This document shows positions 1,043-6,584 of a DNA stretch of 64,000 nt, piece by piece. This stretch comes from Streptosporangium saharense. Its GTDB lineage: Bacteria; Actinomycetota; Actinomycetes; Streptosporangiales; Streptosporangiaceae. The notes beneath the pieces are model-generated. The model did not search any database. It had not been told where the DNA came from and saw nothing but the letters and a program-made list of their open reading frames with translations. The first letter of the stretch is position 1. Each line of letters opens with the position of its first letter. A program made the position numbers and the translations under genes. Location: positions 1-64,000 of the forward strand of contig NZ_JACHJP010000007.1 in NCBI RefSeq assembly GCF_014203715.1, given 5' to 3'.

Positions 1043-2212
1043 TCACTCCAGTGCCTCAAGGCTGGCCAGACGGTCGTGCAGGCGCTCACGGCGGGCGTGG
1101 TCACGCAGTTGGGCGAAGCTCGGCGGGGTGACCTCAAGCTGGGCGGCCACGCCGTCGATCCGCTCGGCGAGGTCTGCCCGGGTCCGCACTTCGCGCAGAC
1201 GCGTCATGCTGAGAGCCCTCTCCGAGGTGGCACGACCACGCAGTTCGGCATCGTCGCACCAGAGCTGGATGAAGTGGTGCTTGCGCAGTTGGAAGGAGCC
1301 GAGGCGGCTCAACGGCAGCTTGGGAGGCCCGCTGAAGGCGGTGGGCCTCAAAGTGACCCGCCAGACCCCGTTCGGCAGTTGCCGAGGCTGACCGGGGCCG
1401 AGCTGACTTGAGGCAAGCCAGGCTGTCCACAGGTCACGGGGGTTCTCGCGCCGTTCCGCTTCGATCTTCATGTGGATCGCCGGGACATCACGGCAGACGG
1501 CCTCAAGGAAGGGATCACGCCCGGTGACGGCGGCGGTGTAGGCGAGCAGGGAACGGTTGTCGGTCTCTATCAGATAGGCGGGCATGTAGGCGTCCTGCGC
1601 CGCGATCCCCCTGATCTCCCTCAGCTGACCGGGCAGGTTGTACTCGGTCCTGTCGGATCGGGCGGCGAGATCGTTGATCATCTGCGGCTGGAACGCCACT
1701 GGCGTGAACAGCGAGAGGAACCGCGTGCGGTCGGTCAGCAGCTCGTCGGGAACCTCAGGGCTGGGCAGCACGCCGGGGGACGTCTGGTAGTGGCCGCGCG
1801 GCAGCGGTCTGCCGGTGAAGCGTTCGATCAGCAGTTTCTGCCTGCTCTCCTTCGGCTCGTACCGCACCCCCGCCCGTACGGATCTCAGGCCCAGGTCGGT
1901 CATCCTGACCCTGCCGCGCTCAACCGTGAGATGCCCGATCACGCTGAGGAAGGCGAGACAGCGATCCACCAGCGGGGGTTCGAGGCCGAAGAAGCGGATC
2001 AGCTCGTCACGGTCGTCGACGCCCCCTTCCACGACGGCACGGACCAGGAAGCGGTCGATGACCTCGTACGCCTGTTCCTCATAGACGTTCGCGGTGATCT
2101 CGACCTGCCAGAAGGGCCACAGGACGGGAAAGAGCCGGACGGGTCTGACCCCGGGAAGGGCGACGGCGTGCTCCACCGCACGGCGGGCGGGATAGATGAC
2201 GGGCGCCATCAC
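1043..2212 (-). CDS. Hypothetical third gene of nuclease-helicase operon, possible winged helix
   Basis: A 389-residue soluble protein of no family I can name. Residues about 45-115 read like a helix-turn-helix or winged helix: FLVRAVVEGG, then DRDELIRFFGLEPPLVDRCL and VIGHLTVERGRVRMTDLGL, as in DNA-binding domains that end in a beta wing. The middle is alpha/beta without a catalytic motif I recognise. The C-terminal 60 residues are helical and charged (RLREVRTRADLAERIDGVA). The start overlaps the helicase stop as GTGATG (GTG 2212 or ATG 2209), so translation is coupled. Context implies a nucleic-acid or target-recognition subunit of the operon; that role is inference. Confidence 0.75.
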   Translation of the reverse strand: MMAPVIYPARRAVEHAVALPGVRPVRLFPVLWPFWQVEITANVYEEQAYEVIDRFLVRAVVEGGVDDRDELIRFFGLEPPLVDRCLAFLSVIGHLTVERGRVRMTDLGLRSVRAGVRYEPKESRQKLLIERFTGRPLPRGHYQTSPGVLPSPEVPDELLTDRTRFLSLFTPVAFQPQMINDLAARSDRTEYNLPGQLREIRGIAAQDAYMPAYLIETDNRSLLAYTAAVTGRDPFLEAVCRDVPAIHMKIEAERRENPRDLWTAWLASSQLGPGQPRQLPNGVWRVTLRPTAFSGPPKLPLSRLGSFQLRKHHFIQLWCDDAELRGRATSERALSMTRLREVRTRADLAERIDGVAAQLEVTPPSFAQLRDHARRERLHDRLASLEALE

Positions 2213-5163
2213 ACCTCCCCGTCATCGAGCCGGCCGAGACGCTCAGCGACCTCGGCGGAGGGGCGCAGATCGCCGACACGGCGCAGATGGTCAAGCATTT
2301 GACGCATGAGCCGCCGGAAGCCCTCGTCCCTGGCCGCCGAGAGGGTCGCGACGTCTCCCACCAGTACCAACTGCCTCTTGGCCCGGGAGACCGCGACGTT
2401 CAGCCTCCTCAGCTCCTTGAGGAAGCCCACGTCGCCATGCGTGTTGCTGCGGGTGAAGGCGTAGACGATGAGATCGCGTTCGCCTCCCTGGAAGGAGTCG
2501 ACCGTGCCGACGTTGTCGGCCACCTCGGTGCTGTCGCCGAGGGTGCGAGCCAGCCCCGCGCGGATGCGTTCCGCCTGGGCACGGTAGGGAACGATCACCG
2601 CCCAGTCCTGGTAGTACCGGGTGTATTCAGTGACGAGCCGTACGACAAGGTCGGCCTCCAGCGCGTTGACATAGCCGCGCCGGTTACCGTCCGACCCACG
2701 GCCATCAGGTTCCTCGCATCGCTCGTCCACCGGTCTGTCGGAGGTGTCGACCATGGCGAACGGGCTGGTGAAGACAGGGTCGCCCGTCCATCCGGGATGG
2801 TCGGTGCGCAGCACTCCGTCGTAGAAGGCGGCGGAGACGAACTCCCCGATCTCCCTGGGCATACGGCGCTGCATGGTCAGCATCACCCGATGCTCCGGCG
2901 GGACCTCCCCGTAGAGCCTCTCGAACGCACTGCGGCTGAGCAGTTCACCGACCTCACGCGCGGCGGCGGGCGGCAGCGTACCCTCCCTGGCCAGGCCGTC
3001 GCCCCACGCGCGGACCTCCTCGTCGAGATAGGGCGGCAGTTGCTGGTGGTCGCCCACCAGGACGGTCCTCCTGCCCCGTACCAGCGGGACGAGCAGGTTG
3101 GGGGTGGAGATCTGTCCCGCCTCATCGACGATGACCAGGTCGAACTCCAGATCGGCGAGAAGTTTGGCGGTCGCGGTTCCGATGCAGGTGGCGGCCACCA
3201 CGTCGGCGTAGCGGACGAGCTCTCGCTGCAGGTCCAGTTCGACGTCGCCGATCCCGGAGCGCCACTCGGCCAGGATGCCCGCCCGAGCGCGAAACAGCGC
3301 CAGGGTCCGTGCCAGCCGGTCGTACACCGCGGGGTCCGTCAACTGCTCCCGGTCCGTCATCGGCTCGTACGGCGACGGCACGACGGTCTCGATCATCGTC
3401 CGTATCATCCGCACGGCGCCGGACGCGTCAGCCGTCGCCTTCTCGCAACGCCGCCGGGCGGCGTCTCTCACGGCGAGCACGCGGGACGCCTCCGGATGGG
3501 CGCCGCACTCCCTCTCCGCCTCGGCACGTTCGGCGTCGAGAGCCGTTTCAGCCTGTGCCAGTTCCTCACGGACCGAGGCGAGCTCCCGCAGGACCACCTC
3601 CAACCTGCCCTGCCACACGCCGGCCAGCCACCGGTGGAGGAATGCGAGGATCCCCGAGTTCGACCGGTCCCGGGCGGCCGTGTGTCTCCGTTCCCATCCC
3701 CGTGCCCGGGCGGTCAGCCGTTCCACGGTGGCGTGTGCCGAGGTCATCCGGCTTCCCGCGGCGGTGATCCGCTCTGCCAGGGCGGGAGCCAGTCTCCGGA
3801 CGACCTCGTCGAAGGCGACCGTGTGACCGTGCTCCTCACGCTCGGCCGTACGGATCTCGGTCAGGGCGTCCCCGAGATGGGCCAGCCAGCGACCGGCCAC
3901 GTCCTCCTTGTCCCCGAACACGGCCAGGCGCGAGGCCGTACCCTCCGTGGCGGCCAGGATCCGCTCCCGCATGGCGAGAAAGTGCTTCTCCACCATGAGG
4001 CCGCGTGCGCGGCCGGTGACGGTGTCCTCGTTGCCGACCCTGACCACGAAGAGGTCCTCGGGAAGCTGTTCGAGAACGTTGTCGACAGCCCGGTTGGTGT
4101 GTGAGGTGACGAGCACGCGTTCCTGACGCGCGGTGCACGCCACCGCGATCTCAGTGATCGTCCGTGTCTTTCCCGTGCCCGGCGGCCCCAGGATGAGCAG
4201 CAGGTCGGGTACGGCGAGCGCCCGCTGGAAGGCCGAGAGCTGACTGTCCGGGTCGAGAGCACCTCTGGGCCGGTGACCCGGATCGGTCCTGTACGGCGTG
4301 AGCCTGCGGTCGACGAGTTGGGTGAGTAGCCCGGGATTGACCGCTCCGGTTCGCCGCAGGGTCTCCACGGCGTCCGACTGCGCCCGGAACACGCGATCGC
4401 TTGAGGCGACCATGAAGGATCCCTGGGCGGGGATGCGTCCGTAGTCGACCGCCGTTTCGAAACGGACGACCACTTCCGTTCCATTGATCCTTCTCACCCT
4501 GCCCCGCAGGTCGGGCTGGTCCGCGAGGTAGACCATGGATCCGACCGTCAGTGGTGCGGGGCGGAGCAGGCGGAAGGCGTAGACACCTCGGGCGGAGTAC
4601 CGCTCCTCGCGGGTGCTCTCCTTTCTCCGGTAGTGGATGGGAGGCGCGTCTTGCTGGCGGGCGTCCTCGATGTCCCGTCCCGCGTCGATGACCCGCGTCA
4701 TCAGATCCAGGTAGGCGTCGTGATGCGGCGGCAGCAGCGGTCGCCGTTCCTCGGTACGGTTCACGTTCTGCCAGGCGTGCCGCAGCAGCGGCCAGTGCGC
4801 CGACATCCTTCCCGGAGGGATGTCACGCAGTTGGTGGAAGCCAAACCAACCCGACGCGGACTGCAGCAGCAGGGCACCGCGCAGCAGCCGTTCCTCGTCC
4901 CTGAAACCACGAAGGGAGGCGCTCCCAAGACGGTAGGCGTCTCCCCGCTGCGTCACGAAGAGCCAGGCGACGTGCGTGTCGGTGTAGACGACAAGGCGGC
5001 CCGGATCGTCCTCGATCCGGGCGGGCAGCGCGCCCGCCCAGGCCAGCCGTCCCATCTCCTCGATGAGCCGGAGGGGATTCGTGTGCGGCGCCAGCCGGGC
5101 GTACACCTTCTCCGACGGGACCACCGCCACAGGACCGGGCAGGAACACCGGCACCGACGTCAT
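2209..5163 (-). CDS. SF1B (Upf1/DNA2/NAM7-type) helicase
   Basis: A 984-residue ATP-dependent helicase. An N-terminal region of about 300 residues includes a small beta-rich stretch (about 205-255) resembling the OB or SH3-like part of Upf1-type enzymes. Walker A is GPPGTGKT at residues 326-333. Motif Ia follows as VTSHTNRAVDNVL. A long helical insertion (about 430-610, rich in Arg, Glu and Ala) fits the 1B stalk. Motif II is VIVDEAGQ near 678, motif III GDHQQLPP near 700, motif V VDSFQGGERD near 895 and motif VI NVAVSRAKRQLVLVGD near 920. All expected catalytic motifs are present, so it should be active. It overlaps both neighbours (ATGA at 5160-5163, GTGA at 2209-2212). COG1112-type helicases also occur in the Mokosh defence family. 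Confidence 0.92.
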   Translation of the reverse strand: MTSVPVFLPGPVAVVPSEKVYARLAPHTNPLRLIEEMGRLAWAGALPARIEDDPGRLVVYTDTHVAWLFVTQRGDAYRLGSASLRGFRDEERLLRGALLLQSASGWFGFHQLRDIPPGRMSAHWPLLRHAWQNVNRTEERRPLLPPHHDAYLDLMTRVIDAGRDIEDARQQDAPPIHYRRKESTREERYSARGVYAFRLLRPAPLTVGSMVYLADQPDLRGRVRRINGTEVVVRFETAVDYGRIPAQGSFMVASSDRVFRAQSDAVETLRRTGAVNPGLLTQLVDRRLTPYRTDPGHRPRGALDPDSQLSAFQRALAVPDLLLILGPPGTGKTRTITEIAVACTARQERVLVTSHTNRAVDNVLEQLPEDLFVVRVGNEDTVTGRARGLMVEKHFLAMRERILAATEGTASRLAVFGDKEDVAGRWLAHLGDALTEIRTAEREEHGHTVAFDEVVRRLAPALAERITAAGSRMTSAHATVERLTARARGWERRHTAARDRSNSGILAFLHRWLAGVWQGRLEVVLRELASVREELAQAETALDAERAEAERECGAHPEASRVLAVRDAARRRCEKATADASGAVRMIRTMIETVVPSPYEPMTDREQLTDPAVYDRLARTLALFRARAGILAEWRSGIGDVELDLQRELVRYADVVAATCIGTATAKLLADLEFDLVIVDEAGQISTPNLLVPLVRGRRTVLVGDHQQLPPYLDEEVRAWGDGLAREGTLPPAAAREVGELLSRSAFERLYGEVPPEHRVMLTMQRRMPREIGEFVSAAFYDGVLRTDHPGWTGDPVFTSPFAMVDTSDRPVDERCEEPDGRGSDGNRRGYVNALEADLVVRLVTEYTRYYQDWAVIVPYRAQAERIRAGLARTLGDSTEVADNVGTVDSFQGGERDLIVYAFTRSNTHGDVGFLKELRRLNVAVSRAKRQLVLVGDVATLSAARDEGFRRLMRQMLDHLRRVGDLRPSAEVAERLGRLDDGEV

Positions 5164-6584
5164 GAAACCCCTCCCCGAGAGAGTTCCCGCCGTCCCCGCG
5201 AGAGCGCCGCCGCGAAGGCGGCCATCCCTCGGGGACGACGCCGTGGGTCGAGGGCGAGGGCGTATGACAGCAGGTCGTCCACGGCGGGGGGAAATCCCTC
5301 CACGGTGGCCCGCACGGGAAGGGACGCGCCAGGAACGGGCGGATGTCCGGTCAGGGTGTGGTGGACAAGGGCCGCGAGCTGGTAGAGGTCGGTGTGCGCA
5401 CCGGGAGGCGGTGTGTGCGGGCCGAGACGTTCCTGTTCGGGCGCGCGGTATCCATCGCTTCCCTCCCTCGGCCGGGGCGGCAATGCCGCCAGTCCGGCGT
5501 CCCGAAGCACCGGGTCGCGGCTCCGGCCGGTCATGACGATCGCGTCCGGGCTCAGGGCGCGGTGGCTGTGGCCAAGCCGGTGGAGTTCGCCCAGCGACTC
5601 CGACAGTCGTACCGCGGCTGCCAGAACGGCCGCGGCCGTGAGGCGGTCGAGTGGCCCCGGCCCCGGGCCGAACACCTCGCGCCAGACCGGCCCTGAAGGC
5701 AGCGTCGAGGCGACGGTGACGGCCTTCGCGCCCATGTGAACGCCGAGCGGTCGAGGAAGGCGACGCGCCCCGGCGATGTCCGAGAGCAGGGTGGCCTGGC
5801 CGACCAGGGCCCGGCGGGCATCGGTCGCGGCGGAGGTGTCACGCAGGGCGGCGACGTGGCGCAGCCGTACGCGGGCGGGAGAGGGTTCCACGCGATCGGC
5901 CGTCGCCTCCCGCCACACCCATGACCGGTCGGAGCTGAAGACCTCGACGACGTCGTCGTGGAGGAGATAGCAGTCGGCCCCAAAACACGCTTCCTCTCCC
6001 CCACGCCAGGCGAGGTCCGAGGACGTGGAGATCGTGAGCGGTATGACGGGTGGGTCGGCGGTCTCAACGTGCCGGTAGGGCTCGTAGTAGGCGCGTCTGA
6101 CAGCAGCGGCCTCGGGCAGGCCGAGGCGACGACGTAGCCCCGTCTCGTCCCACAGCTCGATCTCGACGCCGGTCTCAGCATGCTTCCGCTTGCTCCAGTC
6201 CTGCCACCACCGGGTCGTTGGGGGATCCATGCTGCACGGCACGCACAACACCCATTTGGTGATGACGTGACCTTCCTGCCCGGCATACTTCCAGGCCGAT
6301 TCGAAGGACTCGCGCACCTGCTTCTTCTGGGACTCCCCGAACCCCTTGACGAAATACTTGGCCTGCCAGATCACCACGCTGCCGTTCAGGTCCCCCACCA
6401 GCACATCGATGCCCCAGTCGCCGGGGTTGGCATGGACCAGGATCGCCTGGTGGCCGGTGACGGCGGAGACGAGTTGGCCGAGCATCTGCTCGAAGTCCTC
6501 CCGCGCCCCCGCCTCCCCCGCCCGCTGGTGATGCGCAAGAAAGTTGATGGGCGGCTCACCGATCCCGAATCCGGAATCCATCAC
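5160..6584 (-). CDS. PD-(D/E)XK (Mrr-like) nuclease fused to a pseudokinase domain
   Basis: A 474-residue two-domain protein. Residues about 25-165 look like a restriction-endonuclease fold: a helix with E29 (REDFEQMLGQLV), then GDWGIDVLVG with D60, and VIWQAKYF with Q74 and K76, giving D-x13-QxK as in Mrr-type enzymes. Residues about 235-460 follow a protein kinase layout but are degenerate: the HRD loop is HRALSPDAIV (341-350, Asp and Asn replaced by Ala), DFG is DAG (362-364), while APE (381-383) and D399 of DLYQLAAL remain. No Gly loop is visible. It is therefore probably a pseudokinase used for sensing or scaffolding. GTG 6584 has GATGGG eight bases upstream; ATG 6581 is the alternative. 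First gene of the operon. Confidence 0.85.
   Translation of the reverse strand: MMDSGFGIGEPPINFLAHHQRAGEAGAREDFEQMLGQLVSAVTGHQAILVHANPGDWGIDVLVGDLNGSVVIWQAKYFVKGFGESQKKQVRESFESAWKYAGQEGHVITKWVLCVPCSMDPPTTRWWQDWSKRKHAETGVEIELWDETGLRRRLGLPEAAAVRRAYYEPYRHVETADPPVIPLTISTSSDLAWRGGEEACFGADCYLLHDDVVEVFSSDRSWVWREATADRVEPSPARVRLRHVAALRDTSAATDARRALVGQATLLSDIAGARRLPRPLGVHMGAKAVTVASTLPSGPVWREVFGPGPGPLDRLTAAAVLAAAVRLSESLGELHRLGHSHRALSPDAIVMTGRSRDPVLRDAGLAALPPRPREGSDGYRAPEQERLGPHTPPPGAHTDLYQLAALVHHTLTGHPPVPGASLPVRATVEGFPPAVDDLLSYALALDPRRRPRGMAAFAAALSRGRRELSRGGVS

Follow-up and report, generated by a model that had tools for sequence, protein, structure and literature searches.

A putative Mokosh-related operon with a predicted pseudokinase and interchangeable N-terminal modules in actinobacteria

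A three-gene operon was found on the minus strand (6584-1043) at the start of contig NZ_JACHJP010000007.1 of the soil bacterium Streptosporangium saharense. The window, meaning the whole stretch of DNA analysed, is the first 64 kb of this contig, and the whole genome is 8.5 Mb. All three genes and their domains are encoded on the minus strand. Gene 1 (P0001, 474 aa; 5160..6584) encodes an effector module followed by a putative pseudokinase, gene 2 (P0002, 984 aa; 2209..5163) a UPF1-like SF1 helicase akin to the helicase half of MkoA, and gene 3 (P0003, 389 aa; 1043..2212) an MkoB-like protein without the PLD motif. Gene 1 overlaps gene 2 by 4 bp, and gene 2 overlaps gene 3 by 1 or 4 bp, which agrees with an earlier note on this DNA that had described overlaps of 1-4 bp in a three-gene operon. 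Is the three-gene set conserved, as the same note had asked? The gene order is the same in 19 of 19 family-level loci and in 10 of 11 named loci (two of them within the 19), which belong to Streptosporangium, Acrocarpospora, Micromonospora, Dactylosporangium, Phytohabitans, Actinoplanes, and Frankia. In one locus (L081), the helicase was matched over its C-terminal third only. In summary, the operon has a conserved core of two proteins, the UPF1-like helicase and the MkoB-like winged-helix protein, with which the kinase-like domain travels.

The N-terminal module of gene 1 (residues 9-187; 6024..6560) matches the PADLOC models of LmuA (E 2.4e-47) and Avs2 (E 1.4e-10). It is an Mrr-like PD-(D/E)xK nuclease module in the QxK form. 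E32, D60, Q74, and K76 are invariant in all ten aligned LmuA-type modules, and the E / GxGID / QxKY motif is present in 19 of 19 LmuA-type members. The Mrr-type nuclease motif fused to a kinase fold, which the earlier note had read from D60, Q74, and K76, is thus borne out by the LmuA and Avs2 matches and by residue conservation. The likeness to LmuA of Lamassu is confined to this N-terminal module, and the LmuB SMC protein was not matched by P0002 or P0003 in PADLOC up to E 1.

The kinase-like domain occupies residues ~190-474 (5163..6017). From residue ~314, P0001 matches kinase models in PADLOC, including the kinase part of MkoA (E 1.4e-8), and a ten-row gene-1 profile matches PknB (E 4e-12). 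P0001 has lost the VAIK Lys, the HRD Asp, and the Asn and has kept the DxG. The VAIK Lys is replaced in all 37 actinobacterial members compared, P0001 included (by Arg in 35); the HRD Asp is lost in 35 and kept in two, and the catalytic Asn is lost in 36. The HRD His and the DxG are kept in 37/37, and the alpha-C Glu is kept in 16/37. The kinase-like gene of L140, which lies in two frames, is excluded from this table, yet its locus is counted below as LmuA-type. In five aligned canonical MkoA kinases, the HRD Asp, the Asn, and the DFG Asp are each present in 5/5, and the Lys column is kept in 4/5. The kinase-like domain of the operon is probably dead, that is, a pseudokinase. Since the kinase residues are lost and the nuclease residues are kept, selection would appear to preserve the fold and the effector rather than phosphotransfer. 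A precedent is given in passages of PMC7159879, where the kinase domains of actinobacterial conflict systems mostly have disrupted catalytic residues.

Gene 2 has Pfam AAA_11 and AAA_12 matches, and its helicase core (residues 296-950; 2314..4278) served as the seed for the phylogenetic trees. The best defence model in PADLOC is Mokosh MkoA, at E 1.2e-111 over the helicase half, followed by MkoC at 5e-35. However, the MkoA match alone is not diagnostic, because plasmid helicases without a Mokosh-like kinase also reach E 2e-83 (L101) and 3e-86 (L103). A genome search with the long MkoA model hit 149 of 149 genomes and gave no usable information. No PLD family was found in P0002 with Pfam or PADLOC, and its nearest solved relatives include RNA helicases. 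The first helicase tree drew a program warning on long branches, and its root serves the drawing alone. In it, the 25 actinobacterial helicases fall into a single clade (support 100/99) whose sister is the Azospirillum helicase (93/86). Eight MkoA sequences form a separate group (98/95), and gene 2 lies outside it. This tree excludes the helicases of L040, L043, L058, and L081, and a larger FastTree is also without that of L136.

Residues 29-159 of P0003 match MkoB (E 5.9e-13, PADLOC), and no Pfam match was found in this protein. A 20-row profile of the gene-3 family aligns with four MkoB sequences over columns 12-140 only, at a probability of 96.6 (hhalign). The AlphaFold2 model of P0003 has a mean pLDDT of 90.4, and residues 46-116 (1865..2077), the region inspected, are confidently predicted as a winged helix, in line with what the earlier note had suspected for gene 3. 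The PLD motif HxKxxxxD is present in 0 of 28 gene-3 family proteins; it is not universal in the MkoB-like comparison proteins either, where just 4 of 9 have it.

It was revealed that the N-terminal module borne by the kinase-like protein is replaced across the relatives, where another type of nuclease or domain types that attack NAD or nucleosides take its place. Among 38 loci in which all three genes are recognisable and the kinase-like gene is readable, the module is LmuA-type in 19, HNH in nine, DUF4145 in two, TIR in one (L135, E 7e-31), PNP_UDP_1 in one (L129, E 5e-32), and unrecognised in six. The HNH modules match the PADLOC SAVED-HNH models, which I take to be of CBASS type, and the 'Effector/Endonuclease' models (best E 1.7e-22). 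In the larger FastTree, the helicase of the TIR locus groups with four LmuA-type helicases at 1.0, and this group sits inside an LmuA-type group (0.976) that also holds the DUF4145 loci L079 and L080; in the first tree, the latter two lie in a fork of support 98/99. The module has thus been exchanged, since TIR and DUF4145 loci stand among LmuA types in the helicase tree. The PNP locus was placed with the unrecognised-module group in the larger FastTree, where the other forks are weak (0.03-0.55).

The tally covers loci labelled in different ways. Pfam or PADLOC was run on P0001, L041, L044, L047, L050, L053, L054, L073, L076, L079, L080, L081, L129, L131, and L135, and also on the unrecognised L048, L052, L056, and L057; the labels of L042, L046, and L055 (HNH) and of most LmuA-type loci come from sequence alignment, tblastn, or local HMMs. 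The fragments L039, L045/L082, L058, and L059 were excluded, and the L043 contig has no kinase gene; L040, L136, L140, and L142 are counted within the 38 with a frame-broken gene. L130, L132, and L133 duplicate L076, L077, and L078, respectively. Two LmuA-type copies (L130 = L076, and L131) exist in a single genome, G915. Triad genes are fragmentary or frame-broken in L039, L045/L082, L058, L059, L142, and the L040 helicase, which fits frequent gain and loss. Among the unrecognised-module loci, a BTAD-type gene lies directly upstream in L048 (where it was run through Pfam), L049, and L051 and is fused in L057. These four loci have a short N-terminus with an NGD..GDQ-type motif, and DUF397- and HTH-type genes were seen nearby by eye.

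The distribution of gene 3 is patchy. Matches were found in 4 of 16 genomes of the genus, 27 of 341 of the family (20 of them nearly full-length), 9 of 150 of the order, and 19 of 394 of the class (14 spanning most of the gene, with one of the 14 split in two). The weak family-level matches in G275, G080, and G023 were left out of the locus comparison. In a phylum-wide sample of 396 genomes, the window genome was recovered along with five matches that are short and weak; the class and phylum scans scored four candidates per genome, and their counts may be low. Searches of plasmid and phage records did not turn up gene 3, and viral contigs gave no close relatives of genes 1 and 2.

In the window, the neighbours inspected by eye (ORFs to ~10.6 kb) look like genes for a HATPase, a regulator of DeoR type, and a permease, and the other flank is the contig end; no defence or restriction gene was seen near the operon in this range. 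The HATPase-like gene and a small gene (24-1030) adjoin the operon, and G013 has a comparable pair close to its triad (L038), where an MTase and a UvrD-like gene stand between the pair and the triad. The idea that this pair marks a defence hotspot was dropped: the small gene belongs to a multi-copy family in 16/16 genus genomes. In five further stretches, no clear defence genes were seen by eye.

Among the relatives, recognised defence or restriction genes adjoin the triad in several loci, namely a type I MTase in L038, GmrSD in L041, L054, and L056, an N6 MTase in L042, and HsdS in L079. The flank of L077 has a DrmD-like gene, a type IV enzyme, and a TIR-TPR gene, and that of L078 has type I-E Cas3/Cas8e (Cas3e/Cas8e) and McrBC. 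The flank scans comprised 18 distinct proteins picked by eye; three of them (L079:11100-15599, L044:1170-3944, and L073:2-2689) gave no defence-specific match, and L038:12068-15265 gave a weak one only. Within 20 kb of gene 3 in 20 genomes, GmrSD_N occurs four times against 0.10 expected (in 4 of 20 loci) and N6_Mtase seven times against 0.36 (in 5 of 20); within 10 kb, the counts are three against 0.06 and three against 0.19. These two families were chosen after the flanks had been viewed, so that p-values overstate the excess. TIR_2, which was not chosen from the flanks, gave 0/60 within 20 kb, with ~0.2-0.3 expected by rough arithmetic, and is uninformative; the PfkB control gave none within 20 kb of gene 3 among the matches listed. 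In the GmrSD_N and N6_Mtase test, G013 alone of the four LmuA-type genomes had a match.

How does the operon relate to known systems? The earlier note had read it as the logic of Mokosh in another arrangement, in which an Mrr-type nuclease replaces PLD, and as a possibly undescribed system. This reading is supported: gene 2 has MkoA as its best match, gene 3 has the MkoB N-terminal domain, HxKxxxxD is absent from all 28 members of the gene-3 family, and none of the PADLOC or NCBIfam models covered all three genes. Judged from sequence comparison, parts of the operon are homologous to those of Mokosh, which goes beyond mere analogy. The operon shares with type I Mokosh a related COG1112 (UPF1-like) helicase, the MkoB N-terminal domain, a kinase fold, and the order kinase-helicase-MkoB. 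In contrast to type I Mokosh, described in passages of PMC11672841 with the kinase in the helicase protein and a PLD nuclease, the kinase-like domain of the window and its relatives is encoded by a separate gene, is apparently dead (if the catalytic residues are assumed to be defining), and is fused to the exchangeable module, and the PLD motif is missing. Type I membership was rejected for the kinase outside the helicase protein and the missing PLD. Type II Mokosh has helicase and PLD in one protein (MkoC), and P0002 does not have this arrangement. Since the MkoA model is unspecific and gene 2 falls outside the MkoA group, the term Mokosh-related is carried mainly by gene 3, the kinase-like domain, and the gene order. 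The operon is best called a putative Mokosh-related variant with a pseudokinase and interchangeable effectors.

Other identities fit less well. Lamassu LmuA, Avs2, and SAVED-HNH have effector modules matching those of the operon family, but the partners here are a UPF1-like helicase and an MkoB-like protein. BREX type 2 was rejected, as the PglW match (E 0.007, PADLOC) is confined to part of the kinase and does not extend to full-length PglW. An ordinary restriction operon was also rejected, there being no MTase or specificity gene among the three. The ternary NTP-dependent conflict systems of actinobacteria, as presented in passages of PMC7159879, likewise have mostly disrupted kinases and diverse effectors but are built on a vWA-MoxR core, and a text search of that source did not find UPF1. 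The arrangement is not described in the literature within a scope of titles, abstracts, and passages, the text of the founding Mokosh paper lying outside it; the passages were those of PMC10952713, PMC11291487, PMC12839542, PMC12278908, PMC12926258, PMC11672841, and PMC7159879.

Canonical Mokosh loci, with a kinase-helicase protein followed by an MkoB-like gene, were found on plasmids of Arthrobacter, Streptomyces, Tolypothrix, Agrobacterium, M. marinum, Aliarcobacter, and Microvirga; PADLOC was run on the Arthrobacter and Aliarcobacter pairs, and the rest were assigned by annotation and sequence. In the Agrobacterium (L064) and Microvirga (L105) plasmids, the Mokosh-like pair is followed by a PP2C phosphatase gene, and the MkoB-like protein has no simple HxKxxxxD. 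A second form of type I Mokosh, on a Pseudomonas amygdali plasmid (L104), has NERD, kinase-like parts, and a helicase in a single 1679-aa protein, whose first kinase-like domain by eye carries HRD and lacks the DFG Asp. L104 shares with the operon a nuclease-type domain before a kinase-like domain and an MkoB partner without HxKxxxxD, whereas it is fused with NERD and a second kinase-like part and the operon has separate genes and an LmuA-type nuclease. A nuclease-type domain before a Mokosh kinase is thus already known from L104 and from a passage of PMC10952713, which lists NERD for Mokosh type I.

An unannotated four-gene relative was found on the Azospirillum lipoferum 4B plasmid AZO_p1 (L060:2531-9727). 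One gene encodes a fusion protein with PP2C, NERD-like, and kinase-like parts by eye, in which HRG replaces HRD, and another encodes a kinase whose motifs are intact. The other two encode an MkoA-type helicase, separate from the kinases, and a relative of gene 3 (E 1.3e-10) that lacks HxKxxxxD. The separate helicase, the gene-3 relative, and the kinase-like fusion with an altered HRD are common to L060 and the operon; the NERD-like and PP2C parts and the extra intact kinase gene set L060 apart. This locus suggests a path from a fused NERD Mokosh through splitting and loss of the active kinase to replacement of NERD by other modules.

A role in defence is inferred from homology, from the kinds of module, and from the gene neighbourhood, and the reading of the operon as a Mokosh-related defence system with an exchangeable effector is somewhat favoured. 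The helicase and the winged-helix protein would recognise an infection-specific nucleic acid, such as phage RNA, an RNA-DNA hybrid, or a DNA intermediate, with ATP being hydrolysed by the helicase during recognition. The pseudokinase may act as a switch or adaptor, reading the state of the sensor complex and then setting the effector free or causing it to oligomerise. The LmuA-type module would then cleave DNA, most likely that of host and phage together, and the infection would be aborted. TIR, PNP, SAVED-HNH, and LmuA effectors elsewhere act abortively, and the module is read as an abortive effector by analogy with them. Mokosh degrades viral transcripts according to one passage of PMC11291487, and this counts against the LmuA reading because an LmuA-type DNase would act otherwise; contrary to that source, passages of PMC12926258 list the mechanism of Mokosh as unknown. 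Also against a defence reading are the 6 of 38 loci without a recognised enzyme and the window itself, where no defence neighbour was seen to ~10.6 kb, as well as the negative searches of plasmid, phage, and viral sequences.

Might the host survive instead? The helicase and the winged-helix protein could load on foreign or wrongly modified DNA to be cut by the LmuA/Mrr-like nuclease, with the pseudokinase as a scaffold. An Mrr-like nuclease with a translocase resembles type IV and type I restriction, and both the type I MTase adjoining the triad in L038 and the N6_Mtase excess agree with this. Nevertheless, such restriction-like action is unlikely: TIR and PNP-type modules in the same slot are not DNA-cutting families and fit an abortive effector better, and RNA helicases are among the nearest solved relatives of the helicase. 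It is also improbable that the kinase-like domain has an unusual activity, such as AMP transfer or a phosphorylation in which the lysine is displaced, and that it signals through modification of the helicase or of the winged-helix protein. The DxG of all 37 members, the alpha-C Glu of 16, the HRD Asp of two, and the intact motifs of canonical MkoA and of the extra Azospirillum kinase gene speak for such activity, but the VAIK Lys is lost in 37/37, the HRD Asp in 35/37, and the Asn in 36/37. A role in RNA surveillance, for housekeeping or development in filamentous actinomycetes, would suit a UPF1-like helicase and the neighbours of one subgroup, namely BTAD genes and, as judged by eye, regulators of DUF397 and HTH type. 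It is very improbable in view of the patchy gene 3 (4/16 genus, 27/341 family, and 19/394 class genomes), the fragmentary copies (L039, L045, L058, L059, and L142), and the nuclease, TIR, and nucleosidase-type modules.

Returning to the Mokosh-related defence system, the chances are evenly balanced for a wider proposal, a new modular immune architecture. The pseudokinase would be a universal socket joining one helicase and winged-helix sensor to killing modules that are swapped freely (HNH, TIR, DUF4145, the LmuA-type nuclease, and the PNP-type nucleosidase), a bacterial counterpart of eukaryotic immune adaptor pseudokinases. The architecture would descend from a Mokosh-like ancestor that lost both phosphotransfer and the PLD nuclease. 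The family provides a natural series in which a probably dead yet conserved kinase and a changing effector accompany a constant helicase and winged-helix protein, and this makes it testable whether the kinase fold is a switch or an enzyme. The same series makes it testable whether the helicase and the MkoB-like protein are a general sensor that may drive different effectors.
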